Under the pieces are notes generated by a model. The model had not been told where the DNA came from and did not search any database. It was given only the letters and a program-made list of their open reading frames with translations. A DNA stretch of 64,000 nt from Sistotremastrum niveocremeum HHB9708 (taxonomy: Eukaryota > Basidiomycota > Agaricomycetes > Sistotremastrales > Sistotremastraceae), in contig KV419430.1 of NCBI GenBank assembly GCA_001630475.1, positions 27,031 through 91,030 of the forward strand. Reading direction: 5' to 3'. Position numbers and translations under genes: made by a program. Position 1 is the stretch's first letter, and every line of letters starts with the position of its first letter. Below are positions 19,253 to 61,478 of this stretch, in pieces.

Positions 19253-19293
19253 AAAGAGAACGGTTTCGAACGCCCTCTATGATGCCAGTTATC

Positions 19294-19370
19294 GGACAAA
19301 ACTCCGAAATTTTGCTCACTCCGACACTTAGAGGCGTCCAAAAACAGTGAATATCGATTATAATATGTCC
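19294..19370 (+). repeat. Left terminal inverted repeat of the 14-kb element
   Basis: It starts GGACAAAA and shares the ordered blocks ACTCCGA, CAGTGA, ATCGAT and TTATAAT..GTCC with the reverse complement of 33343-33449. Small indels separate the blocks, so the repeat is imperfect. The following 300 bp hold several TTATAACGCGTT-like motifs. Confidence 0.65.
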
Positions 19371-19504
19371 TAACCGTCTTTCACGGGTGAATCTCCATTA
19401 TAACGCGTTTTCATGAGTTAATGCACGTTATAATGCATGATAACGTAGGCTGGGTGCACTCTTCTCAGGCCGAAACTCGTTTTAACGCGTTAGTCTAGAG
19501 AATT

Positions 19505-19516
19505 ATAACGCGTTAT
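19505..19516. promoter_or_regulatory. Subterminal palindrome, left end
   Basis: A perfect 12-bp palindrome, ATAACGCGTTAT, present identically at 33248-33259. Paired placement near both ends suggests a transposase-binding site. Related motifs occur at about 19397-19410, 19480-19493 and 19631-19650. Confidence 0.5.
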
Positions 19517-19859
19517 TTTTTGCGCGCCATTTCACAAGCAGAGTTCCATTGAAGTTCTCTCAACCCAAATAACTCGAAATAATTCTACTGCAATGCCCGG
19601 CCATGCGTGCGGAGAGCCCTTGGGCTGACCATTAAAACGCGTTAAAACGCAACATAACGCTACCGCGACCGTTTGGCTCAGGTCACCCTGTGCCGGGCCG
19701 GCCGAACTACCCGGCCGAAGCCGACATTTCTCCGATATCTAAGAATAGCCAAATCACGCCATACTCGTCCGGCATTCCGCCATCCCGCCGTCCGTCTCGT
19801 GCTCATCGTTCCTCGTCTCTGTCGCTGTCCTCGCCGCCGTCCTCGCCGCCTATTGGCGC

Positions 19860-21672
19860 ATGGCCCAGATCCTCTCAAACTTCTTGAGAACATTTCAAGA
19901 CCTTCATGAAGAAGTGCGAGTGAGCATCCAGACGCACGCTGGCAACACCCAGGTGCTTAACCGCCTTCGTCTGCGGGTGTTGGAGTTTCAAGTCTCCGTT
20001 CGTCAGGTATGTACTGTACGTCCGTGTATTCTAATTACTCACGCGTCTGTAGAGTCACCGCTTTTTTCCTCCTGACCATTACCGCAACCTTGAAGACAGC
20101 CTGACCGTCTTCCTCACCGAGTTAGATGAGGCCTACAATACCTCGAATGCCCCTCCAGACGACCGTATCTCAGCCACCGAAATCGTTCATACTGGCCACG
20201 TTGGACGACCTCGAATCGAGATTGACAAGAATATCCTGGAGTATGCCCTGCAATTCAGTGGACCAGCTCGTCTCGGGAAGCAACTCGGCTGTTGCTCTCG
20301 AACCGTCCGTCGTCGGGCTCTAGAGCACGAACTCTGTGACCCTCAACCTCCTGTTCGTACTACTGTCACCCACGACGATGGCAGCGTCACCTTCACCTAC
20401 ACATCCTACACCGCCCCAATGTCTACAATCACCGACCAAGAGCTAGACGATCTGGTCTCCGATATCCTGCAACAGTTCCCCGCGTACGGACGTCGTCGCA
20501 TCAAGGCCGCATTGGCATTCAAGATGTACAAAGTCCCAGATACACGCATCCGCGAATCCACCGTCCGCCTTAAAGGCCCTCCCCCTCTCTTCGGTCATCG
20601 CCCCATCTCTCATCGACCGTATGACACTCCTGGACCTGGTGCACTCTGGCATAATGATGGTCAACACGGTGAGTTTAATTCGGGATAATGACCTAAGCAT
20701 CCCATTTAATTGTTGTGTCAGGTCTGATCGAGCTTAAGCTGGTGATTCACTGCTTCATCGATGGCTATTCTCGCCTTGTCCTTGGCATTCGAGTCAACAC
20801 GGACAACGAAAGTACAACTGTCCTTCGTCTGTTCCGTGACTGCGTACGTCTCCATGGTCTTCCCAGTCGCGTTCGAGGTGATCATGGGAAAGAGAACAAC
20901 GATGTCGCTCGTTATATGGAAGCGGCTCGCGGTCCTAATCGGGGGTCGTATATCTTTGGAAAGTGAGTACATATCCAGTCCGTTTGCCATTCACATCTCT
21001 AATCGTGTTTTCAGGAGCGTGCACAACACTCGAATCGAACGACTGTGGTTTGACGTTACGAAGGACTTTGGCGGAGGATGGAAACGCTTTGCTCGAGACC
21101 TGCAGGACAACGAGGGATTCGATCTTGACAATCCTGTTCATATCTGGCTCTTCCAATACCTCTTCTTGGACCAGATCAATCGCGATGCCATCGACTGGGC
21201 AAATCACTGGAACTGCCATATCATCAAGATGCCTCGCGGTCAACGTGACACTGCACCGAGAGAGCTGTGGCTGTTTGGCATGTTGCAGCATGGTCTTCGC
21301 GGTTTCACTGCCCAGGATCTCACACCTGCTGACATGTCCGCAGAAGACATAGTGCCAGCCGATCAGCTTCCTGACTTGCAACCCGTGGAGGATGAGGCAC
21401 CGATCGAGAACGTAGAGGAGTACGGGATAGATTGGGAGGTATTAGATGACAGGAGGTTGATGCGTCATATGGCAGAGGTTGACGCAAGAGAACAAGCGGT
21501 TGGCTTGCAGACGGTGACTGTCAGTTCCCCGCGCTGTCCGTTCACAGATGCGGAATTGGACGATCTGGATAAGGAGATCCATACCCAGCTGGATTCCTCA
21601 GACCCACGTGTAGACAACCGTCGGCTTAAATGGCGTATAGCTTTGGCATTGGTTTCGCCTCCCTCTCTCTGA
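19860..21672 (+). CDS. DDE integrase / transposase with HTH
   Basis: Four exons (19860-20006, 20053-20668, 20722-20962, 21015-21672) give 553 residues in phase throughout. After a helical N-terminus, HVGRPRIEI (98-106) leads into a helix-turn-helix with [12 protein letters not shown]. The integrase core follows: WHNDGQHG (D251), [23 protein letters not shown] (D308) and [11 protein letters not shown] (E343). All three acidic catalytic residues are therefore present, with DD34E spacing. This is the fungal stand-alone integrase-core family, which has the typical '..WHxDGQHGLI' and 'HNxRIERLW' signatures. It is expected to cut and join DNA at the element ends in the nucleus. The C-terminal 150 residues are acidic and variable. 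The start is the first ATG; longer open frames upstream lack an ATG. There is no internal stop, so the enzyme may be functional. Confidence 0.85.
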
Positions 21673-21775
21673 TACCGACTCGGTATTTTCGATTTAATGT
21701 TATATCATTGTCTGTTGTTTTGACATGTTAATCTCGAGCTGAAATCAGCTTACTTAAGCAGCTGAAACTTTTCCC

Positions 21776-23780
21776 ATGGTGGCAAAACAACGAAGGAAGG
21801 GCACTCCCCAGGGCTCGGCCTCTCAGGCAACATCAAATGGTTCGAAAGCCAGGAGTAAACCAGTCAGGTCACCAAAACCTCCCACTCGCAGGTCCGAAAG
21901 GATCGCCAAGGTTGTTTCAGGAAAGACTGGGGAAGTAGAAGATGCAGGAGTGGATGCTATGCCAGACGAAGACGAAGACGAACATCAGGCCTCCAGGTTA
22001 TCAACTCGTATGTTATATATGCGGCTCTGTTGGTCATCGCATTTGATCTGAGCCTTTATTGTCTAGTGTCTAGTTTGACTCCTAGTCCGGATGTCTCACC
22101 TCGGCTGCCCGCACGACCCTTGGGCACTGCGGCTGACCACAGCGCGTCATTTGAGGATAATGTTCCACAAGCGATTCAGACCAGTGTCCCGATGACCGTT
22201 AACGCGTCATTGGTACTATCTGTGCCACAGCTGAACCAGCCATCAGTCGAAACACGTGCGCAGACTGGAACACCTTCTCTGTCAGGTCAACCTAGCGCAG
22301 TCAACCAGGACACTCTCACTGGTGAGTTTCCAGTGTGATTATTCACTGGTTTTACTGACCTAGCGATCTAGCCGGAACCGCCCCTGATGACTATCATGTC
22401 AGCGAAGAGAAACAGGCTGAGGATCATTCGATCTCAGACTCTGATAGCGATACCTTCATTTCACCGGCAAATGCGACCTATTATCTGGGTCCTACACACG
22501 ACTACCGGGATCTTCACGCTGGCACACCACCCGGGCCACCCTCCCAGCCTGTCACGCCGCTTATGGACTCAGTACCTGCTGCTCTGCAGACAAGGGCTGT
22601 TTCGTTCGGATCGGCACCTGTCGAAGGAGCAGTTCTGGTCTGGGTAGGCTTGGATCTGGGCTGGTCAGAGCTCAGTGAAGCTTTCGTGTTGGCATCTCCC
22701 TCGGGCCACCCACACTCGTCATGTGACCTCTGGCAAGCCTTAGAAGGGACTCCCGCTGGCGTTCGCTTCGGTCGTCGTGTTCGGGCTATTCAAGAGGAAG
22801 TGATTGTTGCAACAAGTCGCCACCCGCTCTCGACCGACGATCCGCGCTTTCGGCAGGGAGCCGGTTTTCGTGCCCTCGGCTCTCTGGAAGATCTCCTCCG
22901 AGGTGACATTATGGACGTCATCTTGCCTGCAAAGGAAGATCAAGTAGTGACAACAATGCTCCAGGATTATTTTGACTCAAGCTCAGGAAAGGTTTATGTA
23001 ATGTATTTATTGCTGGAGGCGAAGCGTAGGACAGCGGTCGAAGTGAGTTGCACTTTTGCCCGCGAAACACGTTCGAAGACTTATTGCACGACGCAGTATA
23101 CGATTAAAGGGGAAGATGATCACGTTGTGACGCTCAAAGACCCGCGTGCGCTGCCCAAGAGTGATGATGCCGAGAATGCGCCAACCAATGGCTTGACCTC
23201 GGAAGCTCTGTCATATCTCAGCCAGGCATATCCCATCCTCTGGAAAGATGCGCAACGTCTCCTGGACCCCCTAGCCACATACGGAAGTGGTTATCGTCGG
23301 TATCACCAAGTGCGTCTCTTTCAGGCCTTCTGTGCGCATCTGGGTTTCCGGCCGAACTCGGAGGATCAGAGAGATGTAGTGTGTGGGGGAGTGGACTTCC
23401 ATTATAAAGGACTGGTAGAGTGGTGTGGTTTGCGGAGTGACAGTGTAGCAGGAGAGAAAGGGTCGGGCGGGTCCCTTCTCAATCGGTTGTCATTCGGCAG
23501 GCTGGTGGATGGGACGTTGCTGACGTTGCAGGGTCGTGAGCGGTTGGAGGGAGAGGAGCGCCGATTCTGCAGCATGCTGGAAGCGTTGACAAGGGTACCG
23601 GTGCTGGCAGTGAACGAAGATGTCATGGAAGGGCCGAGTACAAGCAATGGTGACATGCAGGGGGGTGTTCACACTCTGTCCAGAGCCGCGATCTCGGAGG
23701 CCCTCAGGCAGAAGCTTACCCCACTTCAGAGTCGTTTGAGGCAGGTAAAGAAGAGTGCAAAGGGGGGTATGGACGATTGA
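21776..23780 (+). CDS. Element-borne 631-aa protein of unknown function
   Basis: Three exons (21776-22007, 22067-22321, 22372-23780) read in phase to 631 residues. The N-terminus is very basic with RRSERIAK, suggesting nuclear or DNA association, and is followed by an acidic stretch (PDEDEDEHQ) and a Ser/Pro-rich linker. The C-terminal 400 residues look globular, for example DPRFRQGAGFRALGSLEDLL and CGGVDFHYKGLVEWCGL. No family is recognised. It starts 103 bp after the integrase stop on the same strand, so it is probably part of the same mobile unit. The second half is one 1.4-kb uninterrupted exon, which is strong evidence of coding. Confidence 0.7.
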
Positions 23781-24082
23781 TAAGGACATCTGGGGAGTAT
23801 TTTATTCTTAACTTGCGACCACGTGGCTGGTTTTCTTCACGGACTGTTATGGTAGTGGCTGTGTGCTTGCTAAGTCAGGCCTTAGTTTAAATATGGTATA
23901 AGGACTTGATTGTGGAAATTCTGCCTGGCAAGGACTGGTCATGAATTGTTAGGCTCGCTTGGTTCGTCGAAGAGCGTCGGAATAGAATGAAGAACCGATT
24001 GATTAATTGATATATTATTCGTAGATATGCTCGCAGATCTACAACACACCGACCTCGCACTCTTGATCCAGATTGGAAAGAC
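23781..24082. other. Spacer between the 631-aa gene and the Gypsy fragment
   Basis: AT-rich sequence of 300 bp without an open frame. It may hold the 3' untranslated region of the 631-aa gene and residual Gypsy flank; no LTR could be delimited. Confidence 0.4.
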
Positions 24083-25912
24083 TTAACTCACCATGACGAG
24101 AGGATTGGGAATGATTAGGATATCATCGGAGAGTCTGGAATAGAAGGGGACGAGTCGATTGGCACTAAAACGAGATGATATGACTGCACCGGTGAGTTCT
24201 GACAACACATATGCGCCGCCGACTGTTTTTCTGACTACGATGTAGGGTCCGATGTATCGAGGTTCCGTCTTGATTCCTATTCCTTTGTCTAGAATAATGT
24301 TGCGCACCAATACGATCATTCCGTGCTTGAAATCGAATGTCCTGAGTGAAGAATGAAATCGTCGAGAATATTCTTCGGATGAGACTTTGCGACGACGAAG
24401 GATTTGTTCGTGCATGCGAGCGAGGTCAGCGGGTCTCTTCTGGAGTTTGCGGGCACGTATTCCGACGATTTGGTTGTGTGAGAGTTGTCGAGTGATCGCT
24501 GGTCCGAGGAATGTGGCTTCGGAGATGTCGAAAGGAAGGGTGGGTTGGACTCCATGCGCCATTTCGAAAGGCGATTTGCCTGTAGCTTTACGAACTGTGA
24601 CTCGGTCAGACCAAAATACATATGGAGTNNNNNNNNNNNNNNNNNNNNNNNNNNNNNNNNNNNNNNNNNNNNNNNNNNNNNNNNNNNNNNNNNNNNNNNN
24701 NNNNNNNNNNNNNNNNNNNNNNNNNNNNNNNNNNNNNNNNNNNNNNNNNNNNNNNNNNNNNNNNNNNNNNNNNNNNNNNNNNNNNNNNNNNNNNNNNNNN
24801 NNNNNNNNNNNNNNNNNNNNNNNNNNNNNNNNNNNNNNNNNNNNNNNNNNNNNNNNNNNNNNNNNNNNNNNNNNNNNNNNNNNNNNNNNNNNNNNNNNNN
24901 NNNNNNNNNNNNNNNNNNNNNNNNNNNNNNNNNNNNNNNNNNNNNNNNNNNNNNNNNNNNNNNNNNNNNNNNNNNNNNNNNNNNNNNNNNNNNNNNNNNN
25001 NNNNNNNNNNNNNNNNNNNNNNNNNNNNNNNNNNNNNNNNNNNNNNNNNNNNNNNNNNNNNNNNNNNNNNNNNNNNNNNNNNNNNNNNNNNNNNNNNNNN
25101 NNNNNNNNNNNNNNNNNNNNNNNNNNNNNNNNNNNNNNNNNNNNNNNNNNNNNNNNNNNNNNNNNNNNNNNNNNNNNNNNNNNNNNNNNNNNNNNNNNNN
25201 NNNNNNNNNNNNNNNNNNNNNNNNNNNNNNNNNNNNNNNNNNNNNNNNNNNNNNNNNNNNNNNNNNNNNNNNNNNNNNNNNNNNNNNNNNNNNNNNNNNN
25301 NNNNNNNNNNNNNNNNNNNNNNNNNNNNNNNNNNNNNNNNNNNNNNNNNNNNNNNNNNNNNNNNNNNNNNNNNNNNNNNNNNNNNNNNNNNNNNNNNNNN
25401 NNNNNNNNNNNNNNNNNNGATGGTGTCGAGTCGTTGGAAATGGATATGGATTTCGGAGGAGGTGGGAATTCCGTCAGAGAAATTGGCGAGGACTGGGTGG
25501 ATAGTGAACGAAGGTACGCAAATAACCATTCTTCTGTTTCCTCTGCAGGCTCCAATGGATCTTCAGGAACTTGTGCTCGACGTGAGAAACCGTCCGGGCC
25601 TTGGTGACGAGATGCAGGGACGTGGCGAAGAGTGAAATCGAACAGGCGGATACCCGTAATCCAGCGGTTTGTTGCAGCATTAGGAGCAATATCAGGGTTA
25701 TTGATCATGGCTTTAATATAACTTGCGTCGACTTCGACAACAAGATCCTTGATACCAACGAGATAAAGTTTCAGCGAATGTAATGCACGGAATAAACCAT
25801 AAAGCTCGAGCTTAGCTTGGGTGTATCGTGACTCTCTTGCATCCAAGGCGATCGAACAGAATGTTGACGGATATCGTTTATTGCTGTATGGCGGCGGGAC
25901 TATCGCCGTCAC
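24083..25912 (-). mobile_element. Truncated Ty3/Gypsy retrotransposon pol fragment
   Basis: On the minus strand the upstream side of the gap encodes the RNase H region: ESRYTQAKLELYGLFRAL, then VVEVDASYIKAMINNPD and RHVPASRHQGPDGFSRR. Downstream of the gap lies the end of the integrase: TGKSPFEMAHGVQPTLPFDI and a GPY/F-type module, RYIGPYIVVRKTVGGAYVL. The reverse transcriptase that should precede RNase H is missing beyond about 25915, and no gag or LTRs are visible, so the copy is incomplete. A 790-N gap replaces the tether and integrase core. It lies between the second and third genes of the 14-kb element in the opposite orientation, so it is most simply a later nested insertion. Confidence 0.85.
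24629..25418. other. Assembly gap (790 N)
   Basis: A run of N inside the Gypsy pol fragment. The frame continues on both sides, but the gap length is not reliable, and any open frames drawn across it are artefacts. Confidence 0.99.
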
Positions 25913-26775
25913 CGAACGAACTAAACGCGTAGAGAAGTGGCACGAACGACGACTTACGATCGGCAGATCCAGCCCGGAGTCTTCTCGGTGAGTCGATCGT
26001 CCGCTTCGATGATCGACTTAGGACCGATCGAGACCAGCAGAATCTACAGCAGCATTACCATGAGGAGAGTACTATGAGGAGAGACTAGCACACCAATTTG
26101 AGAGCGAGTGGGGCAATGCCTGGGCGATTGTAGCGTAGGTTCATCTCGTCATCGACTGATGTGTCATCGGACATATCTCACCTCCAGTCCCGTGACCATG
26201 TTTGGCACGTGATCTGTTGCTCCCGCGATATTTAAGCCTGTTTGCCTCCGTGCGGAACCTTGGGCATCTCCTTGCTCACGAGCTGCAGAGCAGCTGATTC
26301 GTCTCAAGGCTCGTGAGTGGAGGAATGCTCAAACATATAAATCTATGACCTTCGGGGGCTCCGCGATCTCCCTAGAGTGGCTATGTGGTCGTCGGTGGTC
26401 CACATAGGACGACGGCTGAAACTGATGCGGTGAGTCTGACCACCAATGTTTTGCCCGCACTATCTGACTTTCCAAACATCCTGCCACATTCCCAAACCCA
26501 ATCCGGTCATGACTGGAAATATCCTCCGCCGCACCGAACATTTACTCCCGGCGATCGACTCAACCGAATGCCGGCCAGGGCTCGCCGAACATGCGGCGAC
26601 CTCATGTTGAGCTCAGTCCACCGAGCCGCGCTGAAAACCCATGTACGTTCGCCCTTCCTCTCTCTCCTCACTTTGTGATCGGTGTCCTCAGCCACGACAC
26701 CTCTCGCGATCCTAGAGAATGCCGGAGTTCGAGCAGTCCAATACATTCGTTCGACGATTGGTGCGTACCTGATTG
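25913..26775. other. Region upstream of the dioxygenase gene
   Basis: Contains a TATA-like GATATTTAAGCC at about 26228 and two short coding-like pieces (26570-26640 and 26692-26759) bounded by plausible splice sites (GTACGT...CCTCAG and GTGCGT...CTACAG). They may be 5' exons of the dioxygenase gene, but no combination I tried keeps phase into the main frame. Confidence 0.4.
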
Positions 26776-28503
26776 ATGACAACTCGGCACGTCCTCACAC
26801 TGCCCTTACTACAGCTGCGTTCCAAGAAAGAGTACGGCGGCATATCGAAAAATATGCCTGACGTATACTCTCTGGAGGAATTCAGCTTGGCTTTGGAAAT
26901 GCAGGAAGACCAGCCTGCGGACCCAGACCCTGCAGAGGACAACATCTTGCCAGACGAAGGTTCGACTATTGTATTCATACCCTGCGCCTCACTAACAGTC
27001 ACCGCTCAAGACGTACTTCAAGACTTTGACGATAATTTCATAGACGATCCTGACCCATATATGGCCCGGCCTGATGGACAGAACGGCGCTCCTATCCTTG
27101 GCAAACGCAGTAAGTCACATCCGGACTGCTGAAATATCCCTGGTTCTCACAAGTGCCCTCAGAGCTTAGTCATGGGCTTAGTCATGGAGCTCAAGAACGT
27201 CCCTATTCACTGGATCCCCGCCTGGCGTGGCAGGAACCTCGGCCTGTGGAGACGGGACAAATTGCTCGCAGGAACCGCCAGGACCGGCAACGTCACGCTC
27301 AACGTGCACTCCAATACGTTCATCAGGCTGACAAGCACACTCAAGATCAATTAAATATTGGTGAAGGAGCCCACACCAAGAGTGGTTATCTAGGGAAGAA
27401 AACTATGCCTAAGGTTCCCTCCGACCGCTTGCCAAAATTCAGAGCTGAGTTTCCGAGCTATGAAATATGTGAAGTTAGCGAACGGTACGTCTTCTAACTG
27501 TTCCCCTCACCACAGCTCTCATCCGGTTCTGCCCAGCGACACCACGGCCCTCTTAGACAATGCCGAACGTATCTTCGCCTTACGCACAGTGATCCCGAAG
27601 AACACACTAGTCCTGGCCCGTTTGGCAGAGGTCCTCAGAGCCGCCAAGAAATTACAAGAGGATCTCTCTGGTCTCTCGTCCAATCATACCCGTGGAACTT
27701 ACATTTCCGCCCTGTATGGATTTTCATTCGGTGGGGGCCAAACCGTAAGTTCACACGTCCATACGCATTTCGACTGTCCGCAGAATGACTGATACTGTTC
27801 TGTTCGCTAGGAACCACGAAACTTCCATCAGACAGCGCACACTCGATCTGCATGGAGACGTTTCTTACATAACGAATGCGTTGCCTGGATGATTAAATAC
27901 GCCATGAGTATGTGGCCCGCGCCTCTCTTGGATGACATTTTAACCTCCCTCGCAGGTCTCTTTCGAAACTGGTTTCCACAGCTTTGGGACCACTACGTCG
28001 AAATGCACCAGGCTGTCTGCTCGAAAGAAGAATATCGCTACATTGATATCCTTGCCCCCCGTTGCCCCTTCTTTGCCATGTCTCAGAACTTTGGACCACA
28101 GGCAGTGTCTGTGCGACACAAAGATATCAAGAACCTCGTGTCTGGTTTATGTCTCATCTTCGTACTCGGCTTGTTCTGTCATCAAAACGGGGGTCATGTA
28201 GTCCTACACGAGGCCAAGGTCCTTTTGGAAGCCCCGTGGGGCACTATCCTCCTCATTCCGTCAGCCTTGGTCACGCACGAAAACCTCAAGATTCTGGAAT
28301 CCGAACAACGCTATGTCTTCACTATGTATTCCGCTGGTGGCATATGGAGATATCGTGACCATGGCTGGATGACAGATATTGAGTACGCAGGACTGCACGG
28401 TGAACGTCCACCGCTGCATGAAAGTACGTGGCTGGATGGCCTCGCTCGCTTCATGACGATCAGTGAGCTTGAGGCGTCCAAGGTCGCACAGGCTGCACAA
28501 TGA
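26776..28503 (+). CDS. TET/JBP-like 2OG-Fe(II) dioxygenase
   Basis: Four exons (26776-27109, 27163-27484, 27516-27744, 27811-28503) give 525 residues. The C-terminal domain matches the fungal TET/JBP-like dioxygenase family: a GFSFGGGQT segment, then MSQNFGPQAVSVRHKD with the iron-binding HxD (H398, D400). LGLFCHQNGGHVVLHEAKV follows, then the distal histidine in IPSALVTHENL (H451) and the 2-oxoglutarate-binding arginine in EQRYVFTMYSAGG (R462). All key residues are retained. Such enzymes oxidise 5-methylcytosine or related bases, and in mushrooms the family is known to be expanded and linked to transposons. The N-terminal half is acidic, then basic (QIARRNRQDRQRHAQRA). The 27485-27515 intron is only 31 nt but is required for phase. 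The 5' end is uncertain; the ATG at 26776 is the first in frame. It is convergent with the next gene, with 118 bp between stops. Confidence 0.8.
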
Positions 28504-28621
28504 TGCTCCGCAATCACCTGCAACGTTCATAATGGAGACTGTTTGTTGTGGGTAGTGAGAGGGATATATAGGGGAATGACTGTAGACACAAATAGTAGGT
28601 ATATACTTTTAGCACTAGAAC
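28504..28621. other. Convergent intergenic spacer
   Basis: 118 bp between the stop codons of the dioxygenase gene and the minus-strand 1206-aa gene. Both transcripts must terminate here or overlap. AT-rich, with no hairpin of note. Confidence 0.6.
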
Positions 28622-31600
28622 CTACTCCTCCTCATCCGAGGCCTGACCCTCCCCTTTTTGAGCCTTGTGAATCATCTTGTCTATCTCACGACTTGCTTTC
28701 GTAAACTCAACGCCACCCTCGGAACCATATTGAGGGCGAGGTATGCCCACCTGGGTATGGAACCATATGTCAAACCATGTATGAACTCCCAAGGGCGGCA
28801 GCCCCTCTTTGCCTTCCTCCTTCTGTCGCAACACATTCCTCAACTTCCAATCCATGATGATTGTCCCTTCCGTGCTACATGTCATCCAATTAATGGGCTG
28901 ATCCACACGGAGGTCATCAGTTAACCTGGCCAATGCAGAGGAGTGCAACGGCGTACGGACCTCAGGTAATATTTCTTCGCCCGCCCGAATCACTCCCTTT
29001 TCCTTACCATAAACATGTCGAAAGACGAACTACACATGAGATTCAGCCCTGGACCGGTACGCAGTGACAATAGATCCTCACATTGAGATTGATGTGATCA
29101 CCAAGGGGCAACATCGGAGAGCCAGTCATCATCTCCAACAACAACCTGCACCGCAACAGCTTGGACTTATCTGACTTCACCACATCCTCCCCCAGCAGAT
29201 CAATGATCTTCTCGGTGTTCGGATGACCTTCGCCACAGAGATAACGTCGGAGGTGTGTGAGGAACCTATCTTCGTACTTCTCGTTTCTTGCGATTTGGTC
29301 TTCCGAAAAATCACCATAGCGTGCGGACACACACCGAACCACCTGCATCACCTCCTCCACATTTTTGACCGCCCGACTATACAGTTTCCCAATCAAACCC
29401 TTAACATTCGAACACTGCAACACAGGTCACTTCGATGTGTCAAAAGTCTTGGCAAATTGACCTACCTGAATCTCAAGGGAAGCTCCGCAATTCGTACACT
29501 TTGGCTTCACTTGTCTGGCTTCCAGGATCCATGCCAGACCATCACGCAACGCCATCAACTCGGAGCGATCCCTCACGGAGAGACGTTTCAGCATCAAACC
29601 GCAATAGAAGGACTTGTCCAAATCGATGAGCTCCTGCAGAGTAGGGTCTTTGGGGAACGCTGCAGACTATACAATTGTCAGTGAGCAGACTTTGGCACAG
29701 GAACCAGAGGACGTACATCCATATCACATTCCAGCAGCGATGAACGGAGACGGTCCACACCTAGCTCCTTTTCGGAGCGGCTGGGATTGACCAGCCAAGA
29801 GGTCCAAGCCTGAGCCACGGGTGCTAGTCCGGGGTCCAAATGTTCAATGAACAATGGATCGACACGAAGCACCGGCGAATCCAAGCCCACCAATAATAAG
29901 AACAGCAGAGCTGGGGAAAAAGGCAGTGGGGCAGTTTCTGTGCGGACCATGATAAGTGCGCACAGGATCCCAGTGACCACGTATTCCTCGTAACGCTCAC
30001 GGGGATCCGGACCATCAAGTGGTGACCACCGAACAGAGAAGAATGCGCCTTGTTGGCTAAACAAAGGAACCTTCTGCAGCTGGATCAGCAAGGCAGCGCG
30101 GAGCACATCCAAGATCGGCCCTTGGCCTGCGGAGTTTCGACTATTCCCCAAAACGTTCAGAATGGCGATCACAAGAGAGCATGGGGACTTACACATGAAT
30201 GGCCATGTTCTGGTTGATAATACCGGCCAACGGAACATATGCACAAGCATAGCCCAATGTTTGATCACGTAGATTAGGATCGTTCAATGGACGCAACAGG
30301 AGGCGAGTCCCTATATCTCTCAACACATCATCCCATTCAACTGGGTTGCGACCTGCCGCGTTGAACCGACAGAGCGCTAGGAGTATCTGGGCAGCCTCCT
30401 CTACCGTGGGCGCTGCCAACATGAGAGCATTCCAAGAATGGATGCCCGTAGACCATGCCTTAGTGATAGCCTCTGACCACAGATACACCTCGCCCGGCCG
30501 ATACAGCTTGAACCGCACTTGCAAATCCTGCTCTGTCAGGACCTTCTTGCCCGAGAGTACCTCCGGGGAGTCAATTCGTCGCCGGTGCGTTGGCCTGGAA
30601 TCTGCCTGATAAGACTTGGATGTCAAGCTCAAGCAGTGTAGGGACATAAGGGTTTGTCATACCGTATCTGGAGTTGGCGGTCGGTGGTGAATGACAATGC
30701 CTCCGGAGTCTTGACTCCCATCTAGGTCATCCCCGGTGAGATCAACCAATGTCCGTCTCCGGGAGTTGGGGACCTGTCCACAACACAATACTAAGCCATA
30801 TGAAGCAGACATACAGGCCTTGGCAGGCTCACCTGAAAAGGAGGCACATTGTTCAGCACTCTCGCACGGGCCAACGGGTAGTTTTGAACATTCTGGTGCT
30901 GCAAAAGGACCTTCAGCTTTACAATTCACTCACAGTCGGTTTCACCAAGAGCTCACCGTGGCATTGATTGATCCGGATGGAATGGGGGGGTCTGGGATTC
31001 GTACGGGTTCTGGGGCCACCGTCGATGTCGAAGCCTGAGTTGATGTGGTTGAGGAGGCAAACATGGAGCTATACTGCGATTCCATATCCTCCAAGGCGTC
31101 GTCATCTGTCTGCTTCAAGTGAGAAAACCTAAATATATATAATCTGAAAGCACTCCTACATCGCCAAACAAGTCCGGAGGCTCAGGAGCTTCAGGCGATG
31201 GAGGCTGTGGCGTACCGCCAATCGGAGGTGGCACGGGAGAAAGACCGCGCCAGCTAGGATCATCAAAATCCAGTGTCTATCGCCATGAGTTCGGTCAGAG
31301 CAGAGTACTGATAGTGGTAGCAACTCACCGAAGGCCTTAAAGCACGTTCCTCTGGGTTCATGGAACGAATGCGGAGCCGATCATCGTCCTCCCACTGCAC
31401 ACAATTCAAGTGATGGCAGGTTGGGTTGGCATCAGGTCGCCCGATGCCGCTGGCCACGAGGAAGCGGTTGGCAGCACATCGATGTGGGAGCACACTGTCT
31501 GGGCGGCGCTCTTCGCGGGGCAGGAAGTGATGAATCATGCCTGGCAGATCCTCATGAACAGCGACTGAATGAAGAGCATCAGTGGAAGAGCAATGCAGGG

Positions 31601-32990
31601 CGAAGACACAGCAGACGAACCTAAAAAGACCATGCGAGCGTCATCCACACCATCACCCAGCCAATTCGCAACGCTGAACTCGGGGGTGAAGAACATCTGT
31701 AGTGTCCAGGCAAATGTCGGCTGGCACCAGGTCTTAAATTTGACCTCAGGGCTCTCGGCCTTCTTGCTGCGAGAGGTGGTCGGTAACATCGGAACCAAGA
31801 GTTGCCAGTAATATTGTGAGGGATCCAGCGGGGCAATGGTCTCTTTAGGAGGGAGCCATCGAGTCTGAAAGAACAACTGTGCCAAGCGCTGGTGGATAGT
31901 CGCAGGGATGTTGCCAGGACCGTCCGACGCGACCAACTCCTTGCCACGAATACGAAAGACTAAGCCATGCTCCTGCATGGTCCTCTGGACTTGAGACAGA
32001 GCAGAGTTGCTGTTTTGGATAGTGTACTGATCACCCGCGGAAGTGAGCACAAGCCTGTCGTTGCGCACCTAATTGATGTCATGAACGGAGATGGAGAGGG
32101 GATGTTTATGAACACATACGTGAGCGGGCAGAAACCCGAAAGTCAGAGTACGGTCTAGAAGCGGTGTCACTGACTCAACAGTGGAGGTCGAGTCTGCTGC
32201 TTTACTGGCGGTCGGTTTTTTCTTGGGGCCGGACGAAGAAGCCACCCGCGGCTGCGGTTGAGCTTTTTTGGGGGGGAGATTGTTGGCAAGATGACGGAAA
32301 GAATCGGATGGGGACACCAGGAGGGGCTCGGTGGACGTGGACGGTTGCGCATGCTGGACAGCGGCCTTGTGACGGCGATTCTCGATACGTCCAAAATCCT
32401 TCTGCTTTTTGAGTGTCTTCACGGCGAAGGCATCGGCTCCTATTGGTGCACCAGATGAACCTGATGGAGGTGGGGTAGAACTGGACCACGGAGGATGAGG
32501 CAACGATTTCAAATAAACAAAGGACGACTAACCGTTGACGCTTGCGACAGTTTCCATGGGATGCCCACGTGGCTCCACACACACACCTCTGCTGGAGAAC
32601 AGGAGATCCAGCAGTCTCGGGAGTCTGAACGATGAAAATCAGAGAGGGGAGGGACGGTAAGAGTTCAACACGAGATACTCACCGCTTGAAAGCCGCCACA
32701 GTGATTAGCGACGTGACCCGCCTTGAGGGTAGAGCCGGTGAACTCAAGGATGGCCTGGATCTGTTCGACTGACAAGACGTGGTGTACGTAGCCATGACCG
32801 CAGGCTGCGCAGAGCTCGCCAGGACTCTCCGGCGTCTAGCTCGAGGATTAGCAGGCCCGACTGTCTTAAATAGGAAAATGCGTACCTCGGTGATGTCCTG
32901 GGTCCCGCCGACAGACGCGACAAAGCCCTGGCACGCGTCGCCGTCGTTGCAGCCAGGAATGAGACAGTGTTCTCTAGGAGGGAGTTGCAT
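28622..32990 (-). CDS. Large protein with N-terminal Cys/His modules and a HECT-like tail (tentative)
   Basis: Fifteen exons keep phase from the ATG at 32990 to the stop at 28622 and give 1206 residues. Exons (5' to 3'): 32990-32886, 32835-32683, 32624-32533, 32480-32120, 32068-31621, 31564-31329, 31276-31160, 31109-30957, 30898-30833, 30773-30663, 30605-30193, 30140-29717, 29666-29466, 29414-29082, 29029-28622. The N-terminus carries likely zinc-binding pieces: HCLIPGCNDGDACQGF (8-23), CAACGHGYVHH (44-54), HCGGF (80-84) and CVCGATWASHGNC (100-112). A Pro/Ser linker with VDLTGDD (587-593) follows. The C-terminal 250 residues contain CTNCGA, then KSKLLRCRLLLEMMTGSPML and EEILPEVRTPLHSSA, which recall the end of HECT ubiquitin ligases, but the catalytic cysteine position reads Pro. 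I recall mushroom proteins combining such Cys/His modules with HECT domains, so a ubiquitin-ligase-like role is possible but unproven. Confidence 0.6.
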
Positions 32991-33244
32991 GAGGGGTCTA
33001 GAAAGGAGGCACGAAAATTTACCATGGAGGAGTCTTCACTATATGTGAGGATCGAGAGTCGGATAGGCCATATCCGTAAATATTGGCGGTCGGGCCGACA
33101 GACAATCGTGACGGGTAGGAGTAAGCCGAGGTTGACAGTTAAAGTCGGTGAGCGGGGGGGACAGGGGGCGGGAGTCGGTCGAGCACGACTTGGGACCTGC
33201 TGTGCGGCGCGCGAGGGGTAAGTAACGCTGTGACCCGAACATGA

Positions 33245-33262
33245 GTGATAACGCGTTATCAC
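33245..33262. promoter_or_regulatory. Subterminal palindrome, right end
   Basis: A perfect 18-bp palindrome, GTGATAACGCGTTATCAC, whose central 12 bp are identical to the left-end palindrome at 19505-19516. Probably the matching transposase-binding site; it also lies upstream of the 1206-aa gene and could serve its promoter. Confidence 0.5.
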
Positions 33263-33342
33263 GGGTTCCGGAGATAAGCGGACTAACGCACAATAAATTA
33301 GAAATAATCTATTATTTCCAATTTTTATCCGTTTTAATGGAG

Positions 33343-33449
33343 GGACACGCATTATAACTGGGATTCATCGATTCTCACTGGTTATGACCAGTTTTAACTG
33401 TCATTCACACGTTTTAACGAGTTATCGGAGTACAAACTAAATTTTGTCC
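33343..33449 (-). repeat. Right terminal inverted repeat of the 14-kb element
   Basis: Read on the minus strand from 33449 it begins GGACAAAA and carries the same ordered blocks as the left end (ACTCCGA, CAGTGA, ATCGAT, TTATAAT..GTCC). The inner spacing is longer than on the left because of short insertions. Confidence 0.65.
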
Positions 33450-35081
33450 TATAAAGCGCACGATAGCCCTCACTATGTCCGTCTCCAGGTTTCTGCAGAT
33501 CGGATCTGATTAGTGACACTAATGTTCGCGAGACTCGGAGGAAGAGAATGACTCGGATGTACAGTACTGGTGGCGCCGAGCCGGGAACAGGCTGCCAGTG
33601 TCGTCTGCCATGTGCTAACTTCCAAGCCCGCTGTACCCAGTCTGCTGCTCGTTCGACGTCGCGTCTGTGCGTTTCTCTCCACTCGAGAACAGTAGGTCAT
33701 GGTCCATACATGTAAGTCTCTCTGGAGTATATCGTGTGAAGACAGTGACTGAAGCGGCAAGACAGGCTTTCAACCGCGGAAGAGAGTCCCCAAGATAACC
33801 ACTATAGTCGTCTTGTGCTCACCGTGAGCGACATGGAAGTCTCATGAGATCGTTCAGACGAAGAGCGCCCTCTGATATCGCTGGGATCGAAGACATCAAT
33901 CCCCACGACGCTGCTGAGTCCAGAGTCTTGACCAAGTCCGGGATACCAAGTCGCATATTTCTGAACTCGCTCGAGCCCAATCGCACCAAGCGCCGATGAA
34001 GTTATAGGTCAAGACCGGGTATATGAGAAAAACCCAGAATCAGTGTGTAGCAAGGCCTACGCTGCCTTCTGGTATGTGCGGTTCCTATCGCTTCGGTAGT
34101 TTTAACGAAATCAAAGACAGTCCGCGAAACATGTAGCAATAGACTATGTTTTGCATCTGCGACGTTTTGGCAACGAAGTAGAAAGCAGAGAGAACTACGA
34201 AAGTGTCCATCCTATTTCAGAGATATGGCTGGTCATCCTTGTCTCCTACCCCGTAAAGGTGCGACACCCTTTGTCATTGAAGCGTCGAGCGATTTGTTGA
34301 CCTTACTTTGGATAGACCAATGTACTCCGGCCTCTCCGAGTCCTCTTCTTCTGTGGCAGTCTAGCAATGAGATTATGGTCTGCTCAACGAGAGCTATGCT
34401 CGCCAATCGTCACAGTCTTTCAAAACCCTTTTTGTGAATGTTCTGCGTATCTCCCAAGTTGGGGCAAGAGAGAGATCTTCAGATCACTTTCGTTAAACAA
34501 TCACTCTCTCAGCCAGGTGTGTTGGAATCTGTTTTCTTTATCATTTTGGCCGATACTACACATGCAAGGCAGACTCGGAGTTGATCGACACTTTCTCTAG
34601 CTACTCAAAATGCGGAACAGTCTACCCCTACCATGTGTTCAAGCTGCCATTCCTGAGAATTTCATTTTCCGCGAGATACATGTGTGGTCAGGTGAAATTT
34701 TAGCGGCATATAAGGCGACCTGAGACGTTACTATCTAGGTTGATGCCGGACTCAAGGAGCGATACAACTGTAGATGCGACGAGTATGACTGGTCATCGGT
34801 CAGTCGTGTCACCCTTGCTCGATATCACAGGTTCTGAAGCTATTTACAGGAGCGAAGTCCATCGAGCCCTGGCCAGCGGAGCTTTGGGTCTTGGAAAACC
34901 CAAGTTGGCATAGAATGTCGTCGAACGCGTTTCATGAATGCTTTCAACTATATAACGTGTATATAGATACATAATCTTCAGAGGGTACTCGGATGATACT
35001 CCAACTCTACGTCGTGCTAGAGAACGACGCGTCCCAGTCCTGACCTTGCGTGCCAAGGCGCCGGTCTTATCCGAGGGTCAT
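33450..35081. other. No recognisable gene
   Basis: Flank to the right of the 14-kb element. Short open stretches on both strands (for example 33473-33760 minus) have no recognisable product. A plus-strand piece at 34225-34437 is open but short. Confidence 0.45.
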
Positions 35082-60803: not shown

Positions 60804-61478
60804 NNNNNNNNNNNNNNNNNNNNNNNNNNNNNNNNNNNNNNNNNNNNNNNNNNNNNNNNNNNNNNNNNNNNNNNNNNNNNNNNNNNNNNNNNNNNNNNNN
60901 NNNNNNNNNNNNNNNNNNNNNNNNNNNNNNNNNNNNNNNNNNNNNNNNNNNNNNNNNNNNNNNNNNNNNNNNNNNNNNNNNNNNNNNNNNNNNNNNNNNN
61001 NNNNNNNNNNNNNNNNNNNNNNNNNNNNNNNNNNNNNNNNNNNNNNNNNNNNNNNNNNNNNNNNNNNNNNNNNNNNNNNNNNNNNNNNNNNNNNNNNNNN
61101 NNNNNNNNNNNNNNNNNNNNNNNNNNNNNNNNNNNNNNNNNNNNNNNNNNNNNNNNNNNNNNNNNNNNNNNNNNNNNNNNNNNNNNNNNNNNNNNNNNNN
61201 NNNNNNNNNNNNNNNNNNNNNNNNNNNNNNNNNNNNNNNNNNNNNNNNNNNNNNNNNNNNNNNNNNNNNNNNNNNNNNNNNNNNNNNNNNNNNNNNNNNN
61301 NNNNNNNNNNNNNNNNNNNNNNNNNNNNNNNNNNNNNNNNNNNNNNNNNNNNNNNNNNNNNNNNNNNNNNNNNNNNNNNNNNNNNNNNNNNNNNNNNNNN
61401 NNNNNNNNNNNNNNNNNNNNNNNNNNNNNNNNNNNNNNNNNNNNNNNNNNNNNNNNNNNNNNNNNNNNNNNNNNNNNN
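60804..61478. other. Assembly gap (675 N)
   Basis: A run of N at the left edge of the second copy of the 2.9-kb repeat. The repeat itself is the likely cause of the assembly break. Confidence 0.99.

Follow-up and report, generated by a model that had tools for sequence, protein, structure and literature searches.

A probable IS3EU-superfamily DNA transposon with a putative TET/JBP-like dioxygenase gene among its passengers in the fungus Sistotremastrum niveocremeum

When genes for an integrase-type transposase, a candidate DNA-modifying dioxygenase and other large proteins lie together between inverted ends in a fungal genome, do they move as one unit, to which transposon superfamily would that unit belong, and what might its passengers do for it? 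The question is raised by the window analysed here, a 64,000-bp stretch of the Sistotremastrum niveocremeum HHB9708 genome (positions 27031-91030 of contig KV419430.1, C37 below), in which a first-pass annotation, made from the letters alone, had picked out a multi-gene DNA transposon. The C37 element is a mobile unit with defined tips, flanking target-site duplications (TSDs) and an intact DDE catalytic triad, and it is very probably a complete cut-and-paste DNA transposon of the IS3EU superfamily, 14,188 bp long, with putative anti-silencing passenger genes. Comparisons of copies, linkage and gene sets were confined to this single genome (34.7 Mb, 111 contigs), and the whole-genome searches scored best candidates only.

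The tips carry the first part of this answer. Aligned by eye, the ends of the C37 element and of its relatives on contigs C23 and C27 place the tips at TA, at positions 19278 and 33465, where a perfect 6-bp duplication, GCCCTC, stands on both sides. The first-pass annotation had rightly described inverted ends but set them at 19294 and 33449, 16 bp inside each true tip, and had reported no duplication; none was found around those positions (offsets 19284-19299 against 33443-33459, a range just short of the true left tip), and a longer repeat was therefore sought. The C37 and C23 elements both start and end in TA..TA, as does the C27 element at its left end, and the C23 relative, with 34.5 kb between matching tips, has a perfect duplication of its own, AAGCAA; a 6-bp TSD is present in both of the elements of which both ends were read. 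The chance of a six-for-six match at fixed tips is about 2.4e-4 for each element and 6e-8 for C37 and C23 jointly. Counted by hand, the 24-bp ends agree in inverted orientation at 18 positions in C37 and at 21 in C23, and among 2,258,368 flanking 24-mer pairs (drawn from 4 kb on each side, with every seventh position taken on one of them) none reached 18/24, the best being 17/24. Across the 34.7 Mb the 24-mer tip pattern falls, at up to two mismatches, in six places (the two ends of C37, the two of C23, the left one of C27 and a site on C17) and, at three mismatches, in four more, against two in all for the reversed control at up to three. Upstream of the integrase genes of C37, C23 and C27, 450-570 bp before the start codon (picked by eye in C23), lies the motif GGACAAAA, whose 13-bp form occurs eight times in the genome (five for the reversed control); five of the eight are the known ends of the three elements (two each for C37 and C23, the left one for C27), where the similarity, again aligned by eye, extends 11 bp outward, up to the TA. 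On the other side, the C27 right tip was not found in the stretch of C27 examined, and DNA searches with the C37 and C23 ends turned up no additional copies in the genome, so that present activity is unproven.

Just inside the tips, the mirrored palindromes that had been described at both ends are borne out by their distribution. The palindrome AACGCGTT occurs five times in the 1,048 bp of the C37 ends (four times in the left 582 bp, once in the right 466 bp, which also holds TAACG four times), is absent from the 10,702 bp of interior left when the Ty3-like stretch is removed, and occurs three times in 45,000 bp outside the element. The C23 and C27 ends bear CAGGCCTG and CCTGATCA in its place, with four of each in the left 585 bp of C23, three of each in the left 466 bp of C27, and one and four, respectively, in 45 kb outside. 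Tips that stay alike while subterminal motifs change between families would suggest a co-evolving DNA-binding factor. Elsewhere in the genome, the C17 site (C17:666024-666047, minus strand) is a right tip identical to that of C23 at 24/24 positions; its contig has neither an rva_4 nor a giant-gene match, and the tip is perhaps the remnant of a deleted or non-autonomous element; on C34, a left tip with three mismatches (C34:334265-334288, plus strand) has a weak dioxygenase match (C34:335097-335402) at a distance of 0.8 kb and may mark a decayed element, the control also giving two matches at the three-mismatch level.

Between these ends, the gene nearest the left tip encodes the transposase. 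Its four-exon model is identical under both settings of the splice-aware gene modelling (a further model with a strong coding weight was dropped for its tiny, implausible exons), and its protein matches PF24764 rva_4 (expectation value, E, 3.4e-54), which we take to be the IS3EU transposase domain, and PF00665 rve (E 2.2e-5). The catalytic residues had been called intact, and they are: D251, D308 and E343 form a DD34E triad that is conserved in the C23 and C27 relatives. The genome holds 45 rva_4 matches, grouped into 20 loci. Over nearly their full length the C23 and C27 integrases are 42-44% identical to that of C37, and pieces from nine other compared loci are 24-43% identical to it, the upper figure being a single 148-aa piece from C46. 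In a tree of 12 of the 20 loci, with the alignment laid on the C37 protein, C37, C23 and C27 split from the other nine (support 100%), C23 pairing with C27 as its sister (99%). Three distant rva_4 loci (L035, L036 and L037, on C6, C13 and C30) have no credible dioxygenase or giant-gene match in the 10 kb read and are apparently simpler IS3EU-like elements; an automated scan for TA plus a 6-bp TSD (up to 4/16 mismatches) found none in the window or at L035-L038 and, since it misses the true C37 ends, is uninformative for L035-L037.

A candidate anti-silencing passenger is the putative 2-oxoglutarate-Fe(II) (2OG) dioxygenase, modelled over a shorter search range in five exons and over a longer one in eight, running on to 28901. 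Its catalytic residues, earlier described as intact, follow the iron-binding HxD...H pattern, with HKD and a distal His in C37 and HVD and a distal His in C27; the last exons of the two are 56% identical and share a downstream Arg as well. The family match is weak, and several results weigh against the TET/JBP name: the last exon matches PF12851 Tet_JBP at E 0.033 with 13.8 bits, under the cut-off of 34.9; the full spliced protein has no Pfam match at E <=1; the C27 exon has no Tet_JBP match; and an unrelated domain, SOGP_2nd, scores in the same range (E 0.29 and 0.056 for the two exons), which gauges the noise. The sub-threshold matches make the TET/JBP assignment a weak suggestion. Among the structures of the PDB the full protein has no match and a two-exon profile a single chance-level one; the viral and prokaryote collections held no confirmed relatives of its exons. 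Searches of PHROGs and NCBIfam yielded no match. A six-frame genome search with PF12851 returned no match at E <=10 and is insensitive, since it missed the C37 gene itself. Read by offset from the first His rather than by alignment with CcTET, the AG-type Gly/Ser at H+5 and Asp at H+11 are replaced by Asn and Cys in both C37 and C27, and both have HxD where the PE type has HxE; by these two sets of markers (PMC12730594) the enzyme would belong to neither the AG nor the PE type.

DNA demethylation, the activity that we infer for it, has a competitor. The dioxygenase could act on another base, on RNA or on protein, as would fit the weak Tet_JBP match, the similar score of a second 2OG family (PF13640, E 0.1, below cut-off) and the lack, at the corresponding offsets, of the CcTET residues for 5-methylcytosine and N6-methyladenine. 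We regard this as possible though doubtful, given that the exon's best Pfam match is nonetheless Tet_JBP and that the dioxygenases of fungal transposons have all been placed in TET/JBP (PMC12730594).

The probable superfamily name is drawn from the TA..TA termini, the 6-bp TSD and the Pfam domains and DD34E triad of the rva_4/rve transposase. That the element belongs instead to a sister of IS3EU, be it IS481EU or some unnamed rva_4 group, is improbable: its tips do depart from the TAYGG of published relatives, yet IS481EU elements are reported from parabasalids and have TSDs of about 4, 15 or 25 bp, and 6 bp with TA..TA are IS3EU traits.

The genes, too, keep company beyond C37. C37, C23 and C27 each combine integrase, dioxygenase and giant gene, with left tips that match at the latter two. 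Giant homologues, among the best candidates scored, lie only at C23:413676-414017 and C27:462043-462342 (36% identity), and of nine other dioxygenase loci those of C23 (72% over the best piece) and C27 (56%) adjoin integrases. Three observations pull the other way. For the remaining seven dioxygenase loci (C13, C17, C57, C81, C99, C6 and C34) no rva_4 match stands closer than 100 kb; the C13 dioxygenase is by best piece the closest to that of C37 (77% over 183 aa), with no rva_4 nearby; and the dioxygenase strand in C37 is opposite to that in C23 and C27. From the opposite strand and the C13 kinship it follows that the dioxygenase may have been captured more than once, and its flipped position in C23 and C27 suggests inversion or a separate capture. 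Unlinked genes elsewhere had been named as the outcome that would overturn the proposal; within this genome the genes are linked at three loci and the dioxygenase is partly unlinked. The seven lone dioxygenase loci, and an orphan gene that is not shared, would also suit a composite or chance neighbourhood, with a small IS3EU transposon beside ordinary host dioxygenase and giant genes. Such an arrangement is very unlikely overall and refuted for C37 and C23: the C37 tips and perfect TSD enclose all the genes, those of C23 enclose all three shared types, and the giant homologues scored are restricted to the three loci of the integrase clade, of which C27 is bounded on the left only. Least credible of all is membership in one of the known TET-bearing groups of fungal transposons, KDZ, Plavaka, EnSpm or another. 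These lineages do carry fungal TET genes (PMC12730594), but the C37 transposase is rva_4/rve DD34E, with neither a KDZ transposase nor any KDZ- or EnSpm-like Pfam match in the four proteins, its TSD is 6 bp as against 7-8 bp (KDZ) or 2-3 bp (Plavaka, EnSpm), and its termini are TA..TA as against the CA..TG described in Kyakuja and most EnSpm-like elements.

Around these loci, some 25 kb between the genes of the 34.5-kb C23 relative (C23:386900-413600) are a candidate site for extra cargo or nested elements, and in the C27 stretch a Cys-rich beginning like the giant's gives way to sequence that by eye appears to be another retroelement. Three lone dioxygenase paralogues, C13:3156-4765, C17:2304-3574 and C6:1191579-1192533 (that contig ends at 1198364), lie about 6 kb or less from a contig end, and those of C57, C81 and C99 10-17 kb from a contig start; the lone paralogues are possibly subtelomeric.

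The giant gene faces inward from the right end (Table 1). According to setting, its model has 18 or 16 exons and a product of 1,147 or 1,238 aa, so that of the Cys/His giant first described the Cys/His-rich N-terminus stands and the length depends on the model. Its C-terminal region has one Pfam match, HECT (PF00632; E 0.29 when 589 aa are searched and 0.077 when 370 aa are), covering positions 35-71 of a 306-position profile at 13.1 bits, under the cut-off of 23.9, and its sole PDB match, also sub-threshold (E 1.6 and 1.0) and in the right order, is the HECT C-lobe of Ufd4. A Pro of the giant is aligned with the C-lobe Cys, which we take to be the catalytic one. These matches weakly suggest a HECT-like protein and not a HECT ligase. 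An alpha-kinase was considered and rejected, PF02816 giving no match in the giant; none of the 20 rva_4 loci has any of the genome's 11 alpha-kinase matches within 100 kb.

The remaining content of the element is particular to C37. The orphan gene, which comes to 616 aa when 22372-23780 is kept by hand as a single exon, has no Pfam, NCBIfam or credible PDB match, and no homologue was found at any other locus of the genome; of the four-gene unit first proposed, integrase, dioxygenase and giant are shared, and this 5' gene is confined to the C37 copy. Splice-aware models bear out four rebuildable genes in the order first given; the 25 exons then counted are model-dependent, the total being 36 or 33 by setting and, once the shorter dioxygenase model is substituted, 33 or 30. 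The tight spacing also claimed fails between the second and third genes, where a pol relic sits that is presumably Ty3/gypsy-like. A second run of N in the window, 60804-61478 (675 bases), is flanked by sequence with no clear coding frame by eye.

Table 1. Features of the C37 element, in window coordinates.
Feature	Coordinates	Strand	Details
Left TSD, GCCCTC	19272..19277	.	Identical to 33466-33471
Left 24-bp terminal inverted repeat, TATGATGCCAGTTATCGGACAAAA	19278..19301	+	18/24 to right end; pattern finds C37, C23, C27 and C17 tips
Left subterminal palindromic array (AACGCGTT cores)	19302..19660	.	4 AACGCGTT in left 582 bp
Transposase/integrase gene, 553 aa	19860..21672	+	Exons 19860-20006, 20053-20668, 20722-20962, 21015-21672
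Orphan gene, no family match	21776..23780	+	Splice-aware model 570 or 595 aa
Nested, presumably Ty3/gypsy-like pol relic, open frame	24086..26017	-	By reading, resembles RNase H and an integrase C-terminus; N at 24629-25418
Putative TET/JBP-like 2OG-Fe(II) dioxygenase gene, 512 aa, HKD...H	26719..28503	+	Exons 26719-26760, 26815-27109, 27163-27484, 27537-27744, 27832-28503
Giant gene, Cys/His-rich N-terminus, putative HECT-like C-terminus without catalytic Cys	28622..32990	-	Start moved by hand from 33242 to Met at 32990
Right subterminal palindromic region	33230..33441	.	1 AACGCGTT and 4 TAACG in right 466 bp
Right 24-bp terminal inverted repeat, reading TATCGTGCGCTTTATAGGACAAAA on minus strand	33442..33465	-	24-mer pattern search, flank-pair comparison
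Right TSD, GCCCTC	33466..33471	.	Identical to 19272..19277

How might such an IS3EU transposon work? Its rva_4/rve DD34E transposase would recognise the 24-bp TA-ended inverted repeats, probably aided by the subterminal palindromes, and would insert the element with a 6-bp stagger, an action that would account for the observed footprint of GCCCTC on both sides. The dioxygenase, possibly recruited through the same palindromes, would most likely oxidise 5-methylcytosine on the element, which could then escape methylation-based silencing. At the right end the inward-facing giant would be the conserved partner, perhaps, in the most speculative step of all, an adaptor of HECT descent that works on the ubiquitin system. 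The 5' orphan may have been gained by the C37 copy or lost from the others, and the Ty3-like element would have inserted later between the second and third genes. More tentatively still, C37 may represent a distinct IS3EU lineage that combines a possible fourth TET-like kind (HxD, and by the AG and PE markers neither of these) with a HECT-derived Cys/His protein, so as to hit both DNA-methylation and ubiquitin/chromatin silencing, its palindromes changing between families while the tips stay alike, the pattern that would result from an element-encoded protein steering the dioxygenase to the element's own DNA; we hold this extended view to be conceivable rather than probable. Its exact ends and TSDs place a putative eraser of DNA marks inside the mobile unit of a fungal transposon, with a second, non-kinase partner gene common to three related loci of one genome, and offer a testable case of self-directed anti-silencing in which family-specific subterminal palindromes are candidate address labels.

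Among known systems, the nearest are the TET+ IS3EU families, one of 11 transposon lineages in which TET/JBP genes have been reported (Kojima, 2025; PMC12730594), found in seven Pucciniales species and, as one family, in Tuber indicum. The first-pass annotation was right that this is a DNA transposon of several genes, among them an integrase-type transposase and a TET/JBP-like gene; the combination, which it had not recognised as described, is not new in kind, IS3EU with TET/JBP being already in print (PMC12730594). The likeness extends to the TA..TA termini, the 6-bp TSD, the transposase at one end, the opposite-facing second gene and the TET/JBP gene between them. The differences begin at the tips, which speak against too close an identification: Pucciniales families have 6-bp TSDs, terminal inverted repeats >30 bp long and TAYGG..CCRTA ends (PMC12730594), whereas C37 has TATGA and TATCG at the ends of 24-bp repeats with 6 mismatches. 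In all TET+ IS3EU elements the TET gene lies between the transposase and an opposite-facing alpha-kinase (PMC12730594), the only source in our literature search to link that kinase with IS3EU; in C37 the giant, with no detectable alpha-kinase, holds the same position and orientation. The Tuber indicum dioxygenase is of PE type, with HxE (PMC12730594), as against HxD in C37, which has the orphan gene in addition. IS3EU/GingerRoot elements share the IS3-like DDE transposase, TA..TA termini and a TSD that is usually 6 bp (PMC10045372), from which C37 differs in its large size (14 kb) and three further genes; an excerpt on Ganoderma also mentions IS3EU repeats (PMC8955403). The AG-type TET+ Kyakuja/Zisupton elements, CcTET included, bring the same HxD...H dioxygenase in a fungal transposon but differ in their transposase and in TSDs of 7 or 8 bp; at the offsets of Gly331 and Asp337 C37 has Asn and Cys. 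No report of HECT genes in IS3EU or related transposons was found in the literature searches made, and the precedent for an integrase-type DNA transposon with ubiquitin/SUMO-system domains is Ginger1, which carries OTU or Ulp1 domains (PMC2836005), proteases at the transposase C-terminus, whereas the HECT-like protein of C37 is separate. What C37 adds to these systems is its end sequence, a partner that is HECT-like in place of any detectable alpha-kinase, a dioxygenase of neither AG nor PE type, and an orphan gene.

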